A DNA stretch of 44,738 nt, from positions 1 through 44,738 of the forward strand of contig NZ_JAMQQG010000017.1 of the NCBI RefSeq assembly GCF_023716925.1, in the 5' to 3' direction. Made by a program: the position numbers and the translations under genes. A model generated the notes under the pieces. It worked only from the letters and a program-made list of their open reading frames with translations. It was not told the origin of the DNA and made no database searches. This DNA comes from Frankia sp. R82 (GTDB taxonomy: Bacteria; Actinomycetota; Actinomycetes; Frankiales; Frankiaceae). Below are positions 8,031-17,767 of the stretch, in pieces (the first letter of the stretch is position 1; the number at the start of each line of letters is the position of its first letter).

Positions 8031-8795
8031 CTACGGCAGGGCTGGCAGGGGCGGACCGCGGCGGCGGGCGGCGCGACCCAGCGGCCGGGTGTGCGGCCGG
8101 GGGGAAAAACCGGGGCTGGCGGCACGCAGGGTCGGTGGCCGGGCCGGAACCTTTCCGACCAGCCGCTGCGACCACCCGGCGATCCGTTCGAACAGGCGCC
8201 TGACCAGCGACGTCGACGCAAGGCTCCTGACACACCACAGCAGCCGTTCGGCCCGCCGCAACGAGACCGCGACCACCAGCGCCGCGACCGCGTGCGCAAG
8301 CAGCATCTGGCTGGTCAGCAGCGCCGGCAGCCCGGCCAGATGTGCCGCGCCGGCCATGTCCACCCCGCCCGCGTGGTGCATCCCGGCCATGCCCATCCCG
8401 GGCACATGGTGCATCCCGGGCATGCCCATCCCGGGCAGATCGAACCCGGCGGTGACCGGGTCGGTCCGGGCGGCCTGGGCCACGCTGGTGTGTGGCTGCG
8501 CGAGCCGGAAGGCGACGTGCAGTGCCAGCTGGGCGGCGGCCACGCCGAACAGCAGCGCCGGCAGCCCGCGCTCCCGGCTGCCGAGGCCGAAGGCGAGCCT
8601 GGTGAGCAGCCCGAAGGCGACAGCCGTGACGACGAGGCCGGGACGACCGGCCCCACCCGTCACATGGGCGACCCAGGCGAGGCTGACCGAGGATGCGGCG
8701 AACGTGGCTGCCCGGCCGAGGCGCGCCGTGCCCCCGTTCACCGACCAACCCGGCCTCGCCGACCAACCCGTCCCCACAATGCGCAAGCTTGCCAT
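8031..8795 (-). CDS. Met/His-rich polytopic membrane protein, probable metal binding
   Basis: A 254-residue protein with about four membrane helices (about 20-45, 48-65, 75-95, 155-180). Between helices three and four is an extracytoplasmic-looking loop with two near-identical Met/His blocks, GMGMPGMHH and GMGMAGMHH, followed by another Met and His. Such clusters bind Cu(I) in many copper proteins. The C-terminus is Arg/Pro-rich and cytoplasmic. It lies upstream of ycnI and copCD on the same strand (217-bp gap) and so is probably part of the same copper response. The ATG at 8795 is the most sensible start before the hydrophobic region, though no strong ribosome site is seen. The family name is not recognised; metal binding is inference from the loop. 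Confidence 0.75.
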   Translation of the reverse strand: MASLRIVGTGWSARPGWSVNGGTARLGRAATFAASSVSLAWVAHVTGGAGRPGLVVTAVAFGLLTRLAFGLGSRERGLPALLFGVAAAQLALHVAFRLAQPHTSVAQAARTDPVTAGFDLPGMGMPGMHHVPGMGMAGMHHAGGVDMAGAAHLAGLPALLTSQMLLAHAVAALVVAVSLRRAERLLWCVRSLASTSLVRRLFERIAGWSQRLVGKVPARPPTLRAASPGFSPRPHTRPLGRAARRRGPPLPALP

Positions 8796-14102: not shown

Positions 14103-15317
14103 ATGGAGTTCTCCCAGTCCGACAAGCTCGCCGACGTCTGCTACGACGTCCGCGGGCCGGTCCTCGACGAGGCGACCCGGTTGGAAGCGGCCGGTACGCG
14201 CATCCTCAAGCTGAACATCGGCAACCCCGCGCCGTTCGGCTTCTCCGCACCGCCGGAGGTACTCCAGTCCGTCATGGCACACCTGGCAGACGCCCAGGGC
14301 TACAGCGACTCCAAGGGTCTGATCGCCGCGCGCGAGGCCGTCGTGCGCTACCACCTGCGCAAGGGCATCGTCGGGATCAACCCGGACAGCGTCTACCTCG
14401 GCAACGGCGTCTCCGAAATGATCATGATGTCGCTGCAGGCACTGATCAACAACGGCGACGAGGTCCTGCTGCCCGCGCCCGACTACCCGCTGTGGACGGC
14501 GGTGGTCAGCCTCTGCGGTGGCCGTCCGGTGCACTACCTGTGCGACGAGTCCGCCGACTGGGCGCCCGACCTCGCCGACCTCGCGCGCAAGGTAACCCCG
14601 CGCACCCGGGCCATCGTGGTGATCAACCCGAACAACCCGACCGGCGCCGTCTATGACCGCGAGGTGCTCGAGGGCATCATCGAGATCGCTCGTCGCCACC
14701 GGCTGATGCTGCTGTCCGACGAGATCTACGACCGGATCCTCTACGACGGCGTCGAGCACACCTCGACGGCGTCACTCGCCCCCGACCTCGTGTGCATGAC
14801 CTTCAACGGCCTGTCGAAGGCCTACCGCCTGGCCGGGTTCCGCGCCGGCTGGATGGTGCTGTCCGGCCCGCGCGAGCGCGCCACCTCGTACATCGAGGGT
14901 CTGAACATCCTGGCGAACATGCGGCTGTGTGCGAACGTCCCCGGCCAGTTCGCCGTCGTCGCCGCCCTGGCCGAGGACGGTGGCGCCGGCGACCTCGTGC
15001 TGCCCGGCGGGCGCCTGCTCGAACAGCGCGACACGGTCGTCCGCCTGCTCGGCGCCATCCCCGGGGTGACCTGCGTGCCGCCGCGCGGCGCACTGTACGC
15101 GTTCCCCCGCCTCGATCCGGACGTCTACCCGATCGACGACGACGAGCAGTTCGTCTTCGACCTGCTCGCCGCGGAGAACATCCTGTTGGTGCAGGGCACG
15201 GGCTTCAACTGGCCGCGCCCCGACCACGTCCGGATCGTGACGCTCCCCTCGGTCGCCGACCTCACCGACGCCGTCGGCCGGATCGACCGGTTCCTCGCCT
15301 ACTACAAGCAGCCCTAG
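14103..15317 (+). CDS. PLP-dependent aminotransferase, alanine transaminase type
   Basis: A 404-residue class I/II aminotransferase of fold type I, closest in pattern to AlaA/AlaT-like alanine-glutamate transaminases. The N-terminal block is ILKLNIGNPAPFGF. The cofactor contacts appear in order: DYPLWTAVV, INPNNPTGAVY, LSDEIYD, and the Schiff-base lysine in FNGLSKAYRLAGFRAGW. Length matches the family (about 400). The ATG lies directly after the permease stop and has no well-spaced ribosome site. TACTCT at 14091-14096 ends six bases before the ATG, consistent with its own leaderless transcript. Substrate specificity is inferred from family resemblance. Confidence 0.9.
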   Translation: MEFSQSDKLADVCYDVRGPVLDEATRLEAAGTRILKLNIGNPAPFGFSAPPEVLQSVMAHLADAQGYSDSKGLIAAREAVVRYHLRKGIVGINPDSVYLGNGVSEMIMMSLQALINNGDEVLLPAPDYPLWTAVVSLCGGRPVHYLCDESADWAPDLADLARKVTPRTRAIVVINPNNPTGAVYDREVLEGIIEIARRHRLMLLSDEIYDRILYDGVEHTSTASLAPDLVCMTFNGLSKAYRLAGFRAGWMVLSGPRERATSYIEGLNILANMRLCANVPGQFAVVAALAEDGGAGDLVLPGGRLLEQRDTVVRLLGAIPGVTCVPPRGALYAFPRLDPDVYPIDDDEQFVFDLLAAENILLVQGTGFNWPRPDHVRIVTLPSVADLTDAVGRIDRFLAYYKQP

Positions 15318-15613
15318 CCCTGGCCGTTTCTCCCACCTTGCCCGAGCCCGAGGTGACCGAGGTACCCAAGGGCCCGCCCGAGGCGACATAAAGTACGCAC
15401 GTGATAGCCCTGGGTGTTATCGCACACTCTCGGCAACCACGACTCCCTTTCTCGATCGAGACATAGTGGTCATCGATATTCTCCGCTCACGATCGAAATA
15501 GTTGCTGTTTTTTCTGTGGGGACACATCGTCCGCGCGGCCCCACAGCGCGAGCAGCACGCCTCCCAGTCACGCAGAAAAACGACAAAATAGACACACAGT
15601 AAGGTGACGCTGC
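15318..15613. other. Gene-free, AT-richer interval
   Basis: 296 bp without a credible gene. From about 15400 to 15600 the base composition is much richer in A and T than the rest of the window, including a T-run at about 15507-15512. It is probably a promoter region for the GT-C-like gene; I see no clear named element. Confidence 0.5.
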
Positions 15614-17767
15614 GTGAAAGCGGTGCCGGACCAGACAGGAGGTGGACCGGGGGTGGGCCGAGGCAGCTCTTCCGCATCGACGCCGCCCGAACCTCCGGTC
15701 CCGGCCCCCTCCCAGCCCCCCTCCGTCCTGGCAGGCATCACCGACACCGTGAACAACCCAGGCCCTATCCGCACTACCAGCAAGGTTGTCCACAGGATGC
15801 ACGCATCCTGTGGACAACCTGTGGATGAATCTCGCGAGGACCTGCCCGGCAGCGTCGACCACCATGTCGGCCTGGTGCCGGGTTCACGGTCGGGCTGGTT
15901 GCCGGGCCAGCGGCCGGGCTGGTCGTCGGGTTCGCGGCCGGGCTTGCCGCACCGCGGGACTGACCGCGCGGTCGAGCGCGACCGGTGGGACGTCCTCGTG
16001 GCATTCGTGCTCGCCGGGGTCGTCATCGGGGTGGAGATCGCGCTGCACACCCGGATCGGCCGGCCGCTGTGGTACGACGAGCTCTGGCGACCGCACTTCG
16101 CGGGTGAGCCGGCGGCGCGGTTCTGGTCGGAGCTTGGGGTGGCGAACGCCCCGTCGTCGCTCGGGTCGATCGCCCTGACCCGGCTTGCCGGCGAGCTCCT
16201 CGGCTGGCATGCCTGGTCGCTCCGGCTGGTCGGGTCGGTCGGCTGGCTGCCGGTGCTGGCCGCGGGGACGTACCTCACCGCCCGGCGGTTCATGGCAGTG
16301 ATCCCGGCTCTCGGCGCCGCCCTGGCCATGGCCGGCAGCGGCACCGTGGTCGACTCGGGCACCCAGCTCAAGCCGTACGTACTGGACGCCGTCGTGACCC
16401 TCGCCATCCTCGCGCTGTGGTCCGCGCCCGGGCACCGGCCGCGCAACCGCACGCTCGCCGGCACGCTGACGCTGGTCTCGCTGCCGGCGGTGTTCCTGCT
16501 GCTTCCGCTGGTCGTCCGGGACGTGATCCGGGAGCGTCGTGGCGCCTGGCGGTCGATCCCGGCGCTGGTCATCGCGGGGATCCACGTGAAACTCTTCGTC
16601 GGACACCAGTCCGGCCAGCGCGTGAGCCACTTCTGGGACGACCAGTTCCTGGCCGACCGTGGGCTGCTCGGTGGCCTCCGCTTCGTCGCCGACCAGGTAC
16701 GCGCGACCCTCGGCGGCACCCCGCCGGGCATCGACCGGTACGACCCCAACCTGGTGCACTCCCTGCTTGAGGGACACCGGACGCTGACGACAGTGGTCGG
16801 CGTCGCGACGACGGTGGCCGTCGTGGTCGGGATCCGGGTGCTGTGGCGGCGTCCCGGCGGCGCGACGCTGCTGGCCGCTCTCGGTGGCGCGCAACTGCTC
16901 GTGTTGGCGGCCAGCGGCGCCCGGTACTGGCCGTTCGGCGCCTGTCGGACGAACCTGTTCGTCGTCCCGCTGCTGGTGATCGTCGCGGCGGCCGGCGCGG
17001 ACGAACTGCTGTCCACCGCCCGGCGGCGGATCACCCGCCGAGCCGCGTCGGGCGGTCAACCTACGTCCGCGTCCACAGCCACAGCGGTGGCCGTGGACGC
17101 GGGAGCAGCAACCACGGCCACCGGCGGGGCGGACCCGGGAGGGACTGCCCCGGCGAGTTCAGCCGTGGCGGCGGTGGCGTGTGTGCTGTGTCTGGTGGGG
17201 CTGGTGGCGGTGCCGGTGAGTGCCGTGGGTGGGCTCGGCCAGCTGTGGCGTGAGCGGGGGGCGGTGCGTCCGATCGACGGTATGGTCGCGGCGACGGTCG
17301 CCGCCCGGGCGCAGTACCGGCCCGGGGACACGGTGGTCGTCGGCGGCCGGCTCGCGCGGGCCGGCTGGCTGTATGGCATGGAGCTCAGCGACGACACCGG
17401 CGGGACACCCACGGGACGGATCCCGCGCTCGGCGACGACCTTCCTCCCCGCGATCGGCGACCAGGGCGGTACCACCAACCGGGCCGGTACGACCCGTCCG
17501 GGCGACGTGGCCGCCGCGGTGCGGTCGCGCCCGCCTCGTGCCGGTGGCGGGGTGCTGCTGTTCGTCCTCGCCTACGACCGGAGGGGCACTGCGCTGGAAC
17601 TCGCGGAGCTGCGTCGGGATGGCTGGTGCACGACGTCACACCGCACCTTCGAACTCACCGGGACTCTGTACGGTCTACGTCGCTGCCCGACCCATTCGAC
17701 CACGTCGACCGCTCGGACCGGCCCGGCCGGCCTGGTCCGAGCTGTTACCGCCGTGTCTGCGCAGTAG
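15614..17767 (+). CDS. Polytopic GT-C-like membrane protein
   Basis: A 717-residue protein. Residues 1-125 are Pro/Gly/Ser-rich and cytoplasmic. About nine or ten helices follow (about 126-480). The first extracytoplasmic loop has LWYDELWRPHF, with Asp155-Glu156 placed where GT-C glycosyltransferases (PMT/ArnT type) keep their acidic catalytic pair. A later helix near 520-540 precedes a soluble C-terminal region (about 550-715) with two cysteines (DGWCTT, LRRCPT). It probably transfers a sugar from a polyprenyl-phosphate donor to an envelope acceptor, but the substrate is unknown. The GTG at 15614 has AAGGTG nine bases upstream. The early coding region includes a DnaA-box palindrome, so a later start is also possible. 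Confidence 0.75.
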   Translation: MKAVPDQTGGGPGVGRGSSSASTPPEPPVPAPSQPPSVLAGITDTVNNPGPIRTTSKVVHRMHASCGQPVDESREDLPGSVDHHVGLVPGSRSGWLPGQRPGWSSGSRPGLPHRGTDRAVERDRWDVLVAFVLAGVVIGVEIALHTRIGRPLWYDELWRPHFAGEPAARFWSELGVANAPSSLGSIALTRLAGELLGWHAWSLRLVGSVGWLPVLAAGTYLTARRFMAVIPALGAALAMAGSGTVVDSGTQLKPYVLDAVVTLAILALWSAPGHRPRNRTLAGTLTLVSLPAVFLLLPLVVRDVIRERRGAWRSIPALVIAGIHVKLFVGHQSGQRVSHFWDDQFLADRGLLGGLRFVADQVRATLGGTPPGIDRYDPNLVHSLLEGHRTLTTVVGVATTVAVVVGIRVLWRRPGGATLLAALGGAQLLVLAASGARYWPFGACRTNLFVVPLLVIVAAAGADELLSTARRRITRRAASGGQPTSASTATAVAVDAGAATTATGGADPGGTAPASSAVAAVACVLCLVGLVAVPVSAVGGLGQLWRERGAVRPIDGMVAATVAARAQYRPGDTVVVGGRLARAGWLYGMELSDDTGGTPTGRIPRSATTFLPAIGDQGGTTNRAGTTRPGDVAAAVRSRPPRAGGGVLLFVLAYDRRGTALELAELRRDGWCTTSHRTFELTGTLYGLRRCPTHSTTSTARTGPAGLVRAVTAVSAQ
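15783..15828. promoter_or_regulatory. Perfect palindrome of two DnaA boxes plus a third box
   Basis: AGGTTGTCCACAGGATGC (15783-15800) and its exact reverse complement (15803-15820) are separated by two bases. Each arm holds a perfect actinobacterial DnaA box TTGTCCACA (15786-15794 on plus, 15809-15817 on minus). A third near-match (TGTGGATGA, 15820-15828) follows. No replication gene is nearby. Confidence 0.7.

Follow-up and report, generated by a model that had tools for sequence, protein, structure and literature searches.

A conserved trio of DnaA boxes near the replication origin of Frankia: a probable DnaA control site and possible DnaA sink

The current analysis describes a compact trio of DnaA boxes on a 44,738-nucleotide stretch of DNA from Frankia sp. 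R82 (contig NZ_JAMQQG010000017.1, positions 1 to 44,738; hereafter, the window), in which a single box faces a tandem pair at the start of a probable membrane-protein gene. The trio arrangement is conserved in Frankia as well as in two sister genera and is located near the origin; on these grounds, a real control site is probable. Judging from the sequences compared, we consider it very likely that the trio is a genuine DnaA site, probably a DnaA-box cluster of a broadly known kind found in a new place and with an orderly geometry. Our tentative preference is that it serves mainly as an origin-proximal sink for DnaA and secondarily hinders the abutting gene; control of that gene as the main role follows closely and is nearly as likely.

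Results

An earlier note on this DNA had described two perfect TTGTCCACA boxes placed head to head within an 18-bp perfect inverted repeat with a two-base spacer, together with a third box, one mismatch from consensus, beginning at the very end of the right arm. Scans for repeats and boxes confirmed both descriptions (Table 1). The third box, TCATCCACA, differs from TTATCCACA by one mismatch, and its first base is the final base of the right arm. Two perfect boxes and one single-mismatch box are therefore contained within 43 bp of the window, i.e. several close matches in a short stretch, as in the DnaA-box clusters outside of oriC of the Streptomyces, B. subtilis and datA type. Box 1 is oriented toward the other two boxes, the spacers being 14 and 2 nt (N14 and N2). 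A chance origin, which the same note considered unlikely, is indeed difficult to reconcile with the scans: the head-to-head pattern TTGTCCACA-N2..30-TGTGGAYAA was matched in 24 of 58 genomes, whereas its reversed-pattern control was matched in none of the 58, and the control for the trio pattern likewise yielded no matches. For single boxes with at most one mismatch, the window shows no enrichment (6 found versus 5.35 expected).

In the family, 35 genomes were examined: 13 Frankia, 6 of g2, 8 of g6, 5 of g3 and one each of g4, g5 and g7. Wherever the membrane-protein gene follows the aminotransferase gene, the trio is present (27/27 genomes; 13 Frankia, 6 g2 and 8 g6), allowing up to three mismatches summed over the boxes and scoring as a mismatch an N contained in one g2 box. 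It was found in none of the 8 genomes lacking this junction (5 g3, g4, g5 and g7), for which the best three-box scores were 7-12 mismatches in searches covering 650 nt downstream in four genomes and the whole fetched stretch on both strands in the other four. Six homologue loci without the junction similarly had no trio (best 8-12 mismatches). All of these counts mirror shared ancestry and correspond to few independent events. Retention of the boxes in all 27 junction genomes nonetheless supports a DnaA role well. The loss of the element from relatives that keep the protein, a possibility raised in the earlier note, was not encountered for the boxes. The DnaA role proposed there is thus strengthened, while its two versions, titration of DnaA and control of the gene by DnaA, both survive and are not separated by these data.

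Within Frankia, the spacing is invariant. The N14/N2 arrangement occurs in 13/13 loci, including that of G006, which carries one mismatch in each box, and the start-to-start distance from box 1 to box 2 is always 23 (13/13). Two loci (L005 and L007) have an additional forward box beginning 12 bp ahead of box 1. Over the 13 loci, mean major-base frequencies of 0.97, 0.97 and 0.93 were obtained for the three boxes, compared with 0.69 for the N14 spacer; the flanks have values of 0.82 and 0.74, and the CC separating box 2 from box 3 reaches 1.0. When searched genome-wide with at most one mismatch, the N14/N2 trio pattern has a single match, at the trio locus, in each of 12 of the 13 Frankia genomes; no control matches were obtained, and there was no match in the 22 other family genomes searched. 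Conservation of the 18-bp palindrome as a whole is not supported. Six inner repeat pairs were tested: the full set forms only in the window, each of the 12 relatives forming 1-5 of them. In G006, the closest relative, the trio persists with a single mismatch in each box. In these alignments, only the window genome has the perfect palindrome, and conservation extends to the boxes rather than to the spacer.

The window contig is not joined to the contig carrying its own oriC, so the distance between trio and dnaA must be inferred from relatives. In the single-contig Frankia genome G010, whose dnaA starts at base 35, the aligned counterpart of the window lies at 55-89 kb in reverse order, which speaks against the earlier description of the palindrome as far from any replication gene. 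The trio is found 74-86 kb from the oriC N3 palindrome in the four Frankia measured (G002, G004, G005 and G010), on the dnaN side (in G004, away from yidC), and 114-122 kb from dnaA, on its upstream side, in the six other family genomes measured (G013, G019, G022, G025, G017 and G024). In all 10 family genomes measured, it is therefore origin-proximal (73-122 kb from dnaA), a position expected to be copied early. The N3 palindrome was confirmed beside dnaA and/or yidC in G000 (the window genome), G002, G004, G005 and G010, with dnaA of G005 lying across the record start. In the window genome, the N3 palindrome accompanies dnaA and yidC on contig C5 (L039), and the trio is not adjacent to dnaA. 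An interpretation of the trio as an oriC relic was rejected, given the separate N3 palindrome beside dnaA/yidC. The head-to-head pairs of g2 were likewise rejected as oriC candidates, as they adjoin dnaB (L044-L051), and distances in g2 and g6 were consequently taken from dnaA itself.

The trio also lies within a zone that is rich in DnaA boxes. Three single-contig Frankia genomes contain 40-47 consensus boxes each, versus 16-19 for the reversed-pattern control. Of their TTRTCCACA boxes, 18/42 (G005), 8/34 (G010) and 14/41 (G002) fall less than 100 kb from oriC, where 1.0-1.2 would be expected; these counts leave out 3.5 kb around oriC and include 2-3 boxes supplied by the trio itself. Accordingly, 24-43% of the non-oriC consensus boxes of these genomes are situated within 100 kb of oriC.

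Several other box arrangements were encountered. An array of 3-4 same-direction DnaA boxes with 45-47 bp spacing (L059, G005:C1:7432669-7432814; also G002:C1:5692500-5692600) is located 61-65 kb from oriC, with the trio on the other side of the origin, and back-to-back pairs of equal spacing are found about 2.15 Mb from oriC (G005:C1:2164040/2164056 and G002:C1:3480975/3480991). DnaA boxes, often as a head-to-head pair, occur at the dnaB 5' end in Frankia and sister genera (L043-L051, L064, L071). In the window genome, boxes lie by dnaB at G000:C199 ~8270-8422 (L230 4270-4422), and this dnaB has intein signatures.

Trios of the same order are present in other genera. A scan of named genomes with TTGTCCACA-N12..16-TGTGGAYAA-N2..4-TGTGGA returned at least 117 stretches, which include oriC matches as well as recurrent loci and do not amount to a census. 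Among the matches listed, at least 18 Amycolatopsis loci carry a trio with 12/4 spacing. In 15 of these 18, it sits between the 3' ends of convergent TetR and alanine-racemase-like genes (identities based on Pfam for one locus); in the remaining 3, a single gene of this pair was found, with L199 having room but no TetR match. This trio would therefore be the promoter of neither gene, and it lies 73-108 kb from dnaA in 5/5 records measured among the matches listed. At least 14 Nocardiopsis loci have the exact N14/N2 trio, which is upstream of dnaB in 13 of 14 among the matches listed, the other being at a locus edge; it is 40 kb from dnaA in the one listed record measured. Separately, at least four further Amycolatopsis loci (L104, L111, L161 and L194) have a 12/4 trio, which in L161 is about 0.6 kb upstream of the inosine monophosphate dehydrogenase gene (guaB). 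A similar trio, mostly N14/N3, occurs in at least 12 loci, mostly Clostridia metagenome-assembled genomes among the matches listed (L109, L119, L121, L125-L127, L154, L170, L188, L196, L202 and L208). Two of these contigs are labelled Corallococcus and are perhaps mis-binned, and the trio precedes an N-acetylmuramoyl-alanine amidase gene in the two examined (L126 by Pfam, L109 by eye). In G051, a genome of another family that we take to be Streptomyces-like, a box pair adjoins a gene taken by eye as kptA, at a distance of 88 kb from the oriC palindrome.

When 296 genomes were drawn evenly from the class and spacings of N4..34/N1..5 were allowed, 275 produced no match and the other 21 contained 22 matches: 10 of the 12 Frankia drawn, six g40 and five singles, with one g40 genome having a second match. 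Five of the six g40 sequences are equal to Nocardiopsis ones among the matches listed. The Frankia and g40 matches at their two loci are all N14/N2, save for G004, in which the outer box was read. As two unrelated loci share one of 155 allowed spacings, a preferred geometry is suggested, although this was noticed post hoc; the exact pattern is rare in the class.

Table 1. The DnaA-box trio and adjoining features, in window coordinates.
Feature	Position	Strand	Details
DnaA box 1, TTGTCCACA, perfect match	15786..15794	+	Box scan; column mean major-base frequency 0.974 (13 Frankia loci)
DnaA box 2, TTGTCCACA, perfect match	15809..15817	-	Faces box 1 head to head across a 14-nt spacer; frequency 0.974 (13 loci)
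DnaA box 3, TCATCCACA	15820..15828	-	Orientation as box 2, 2-nt spacer; frequency 0.932 (13 loci)
Inverted repeat, 18-nt arms	15783-15800 and 15803-15820		100% complementary, 2 nt between arms; encloses boxes 1 and 2
Probable membrane-protein gene, 648 aa	15821..17767	+	Probable GTG start inside box 3; GTG in frame in 13/13 Frankia loci
Class I/II aminotransferase gene, upstream	14103..15317	+	Pfam PF00155, E 8.6e-52
Enlarged gap, aminotransferase stop to trio	15318..15782		Stop-to-box-1 offset 471

The position of the trio relative to its neighboring genes depends upon the start codon of the membrane-protein gene. A longer open reading frame from 15614 would encode 717 aa and span the palindrome, and the window has further in-frame ATG and GTG codons upstream of 15821. 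From the comparison of loci, this frame is probably over-extended, and the true start is probably the GTG at 15821. In 9 of 13 Frankia loci, there is no in-frame ATG, GTG or TTG between the preceding stop and the box-3 GTG, and for this reason a location of the palindrome within coding sequence, assumed in the earlier note, was rejected as unlikely. Congener alignments to the 717-aa frame mostly begin near residue 120-126, the exception being G006 (residue 18), and the protein read from the box-3 GTG starts with, for example, VDNSRRDL or VDKSRRDL. In g6, this GTG is in frame in 6/6 loci examined and is the earliest possible start in 3/6. Of the five g2 loci examined, one has a long frame from this GTG and four have only a short one, so that the true g2 start must be elsewhere, probably a few bases downstream. 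If the box-3 GTG is the start, boxes 1 and 2 sit in the gap after the aminotransferase stop. Among the 12 other Frankia loci, box 1 is at an offset of 26 from this stop in eight and of 29 and 37 in two; measured to the outer extra box, the offset is 82 in G004 and 447 in G006.

The 648-aa protein has no sequence match in Pfam, NCBIfam or PDB, and its AlphaFold model is uninformative (mean predicted local distance difference test score, pLDDT, of 40.9), leaving its earlier label of "GT-C-like" unconfirmed. A paralogue is located about 3 kb from the oriC N3 palindrome (G000:C5:5670-7358, with equivalents in G002, G003, G004, G005 and G010). Near this paralogue in G002, G005 and G010, there is no perfect box apart from the oriC pair.

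Discussion

Based upon its geometry, a mechanism can be proposed for the trio. According to passages of a chromatin immunoprecipitation sequencing study in E. coli (PMC11317965), DnaA favors box pairs that are 2 or 3 bp apart, whereas a 4-bp pair spacing weakened binding. Boxes 2 and 3 of the window trio are 2 bp apart, as in the pairs preferred in E. coli, and DnaA would presumably bind them cooperatively as a tandem pair. Further DnaA on box 1 would face this pair, yielding what may be one of the stronger DnaA sites outside of oriC, and head-to-head contact would be made possible by the box facing the pair, as in the cores of the DnaA-reactivating sequences (DARS). Such a sink would lower free DnaA and delay re-initiation, as reported for the box clusters of Streptomyces coelicolor. 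Since the site would be copied soon after initiation, we propose that it acts mainly as an origin-proximal sink. Furthermore, the probable start codon is covered by box 3, and expression of the membrane-protein gene would therefore be predicted to be hindered as well when DnaA is bound. The sink is favored over the other possibilities due to the box-rich zone around oriC and the finding that the Amycolatopsis trio is no promoter of its neighbors.

Several observations weigh against a sink as the main role. Firstly, the trio is strictly linked to the membrane-protein gene and overlaps its start codon, although the counts behind this linkage (27/27 with the gene, 0/8 without) derive from few evolutionary events. 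Secondly, the boxes are not uniformly strong: G006 has its mismatch in every box, while g2 and g6 exhibit N12-14/N4 spacing, a box 1 with one or two mismatches, and a 4-bp separation of the tandem pair. Thirdly, the sister genus g3 (5 genomes) lacks both the gene and the trio at this location, and the trio is thus dispensable in the family. With regard to position, the g2/g6 site is on the opposite side of dnaA from the Frankia site, as would follow an inversion around the origin, and a second Amycolatopsis group of at least 10 loci (12/4) is more distant from dnaA, at 240-276 kb in the four records computed. Finally, one three-box site may constitute only a minor share of the DnaA boxes in the zone.

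It is quite conceivable, and only somewhat less probable in our estimation, that gene control is the main role. In this scenario, DnaA bound at the trio would repress the membrane-protein gene or road-block read-through into it, thereby coupling the gene to the replication cycle, with titration being incidental. The strict linkage described above favors this scenario, as does the box-3 GTG, which is in frame in all 13 Frankia and all 6 g6 loci examined, with no earlier start possible in 9/13 and 3/6, respectively. Where the gap after the aminotransferase is large (offsets of 82, 447 and 471 in G004, G006 and G000), the trio stays at the membrane-protein gene, and the Nocardiopsis trio occupies a promoter-type position before dnaB in those 13 of 14 loci. 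There is also a precedent in E. coli, where, as stated in parts of PMC11317965, DnaA represses several genes and is able to road-block RNA polymerase. However, gene control as the main role is at odds with the short frame opened by the box-3 GTG in 4/5 g2 loci, the concentration of boxes near oriC, and the same-order Amycolatopsis trio between 3' ends. In addition, no sigma-70-like promoter was found in 15300-16100, although Frankia promoters may differ.

A further possibility, which we regard as improbable, is a platform that changes the DnaA-bound nucleotide, either by ADP release as at DARS or by ATP hydrolysis as at datA. The order and orientation of the trio are those of a DARS core, and its spacing is constant in 13/13 Frankia. 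However, both E. coli DARS have N5/N3 spacing, as opposed to N14/N2 in Frankia, and three boxes allow few orientation orders, which makes the agreement weak evidence.

Less probable still is a primary role for an RNA hairpin, as either an aminotransferase terminator or a 5'-leader structure, with the likeness to DnaA boxes being incidental. The predicted RNA fold of 15770-15850 is strong (-37.6 kcal/mol, z -4.4), and the inner spacer pairs number 42 against a column-shuffle mean of 34.4, an excess reached in 0.5% of shuffles and in 1% of shuffles with unique spacers (relatedness uncorrected in both). Despite this, box 1/box 2 pairs are broken in 4/13 Frankia loci with none compensated, box 1 of g6 (ATTTCCACA) likewise breaks the pairing, and no terminator-like site (GC-rich stem plus T-run) is present in 15300-16100. 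Box 3 and the CC spacer are also conserved, even though they lie outside of this hairpin. A similarly slight chance is given to boxes that arose by accident or persist as a relic without present function, which would suit the unenriched single boxes of the window and the 8/35 family genomes without a trio at the locus, but not its retention in 27/27 junction genomes, box columns conserved above the spacer and 0 control matches.

The trio is of interest because a short site of fixed geometry that is found throughout Frankia within a box-rich zone offers a small, defined target for the question of replication timing. To our knowledge, the limits placed upon DnaA after initiation are poorly known in actinobacteria outside of Streptomyces. 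The trio poses the question of whether timing is adjusted via DnaA titration or via a change of DnaA state, or whether an envelope gene is linked to replication through DnaA, and the recurring box order in Amycolatopsis and Nocardiopsis opens the same question to strains beyond Frankia. A more speculative and rather unlikely extension would be a recurrent actinobacterial DnaA module, in which one box faces a tandem pair (N12-14/N2-4) and works in a DARS- or datA-like manner by changing the state of DnaA. Such a module would lie about 40-120 kb from dnaA, at the membrane-protein start in Frankia and its sisters, between convergent genes in Amycolatopsis and before dnaB in Nocardiopsis. A literature search returned no description of a one-box-facing-tandem-pair module in actinobacteria.

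When compared with known systems, the trio has parallels in several. DnaA-box clusters outside of oriC in Streptomyces coelicolor were reportedly described by Smulczyk-Krawczyszyn et al. in 2006. Like the Frankia site, they are actinobacterial DnaA-box clusters that are near oriC yet outside it, whereas the Frankia site adjoins another gene and has a fixed geometry of three boxes. Text searches returned no description of the geometry of the Streptomyces cluster called D78. Sections of PMC5742627 cite the Streptomyces clusters as repressing untimely initiation. The same sections describe box I of E. coli DARS1 and DARS2 as opposite to boxes II and III with equal spacing and a prominent head-to-head contact between boxes I and II; DARS2 works with IHF and Fis (PMC5742627). 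The three box matches that we took as cores, at 208(+), 222(-) and 234(-) in DARS1 (L058) and 1136(+), 1150(-) and 1162(-) in DARS2 (L057), are equally spaced in both. The window shares with them three boxes of which box I faces II and III, but differs in having N14/N2 rather than N5/N3. The E. coli datA locus, a near-oriC box cluster that lowers DnaA activity according to those sections of PMC5742627, resembles the Frankia trio as a box cluster near oriC; datA requires an IHF site between its boxes. DnaA boxes also accumulate around oriC in E. coli, as noted in portions of PMC12371093, and a strong enrichment is similarly evident in three Frankia genomes, albeit with only 40-47 consensus boxes per genome. 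Lastly, the DnaA-regulated promoters of E. coli include those of dnaA, guaB and purH (PMC11317965, in part). While the predicted target in Frankia is instead an uncharacterized membrane protein, the Frankia boxes are likewise located at a gene 5' end and include a tandem pair with 2-bp spacing.

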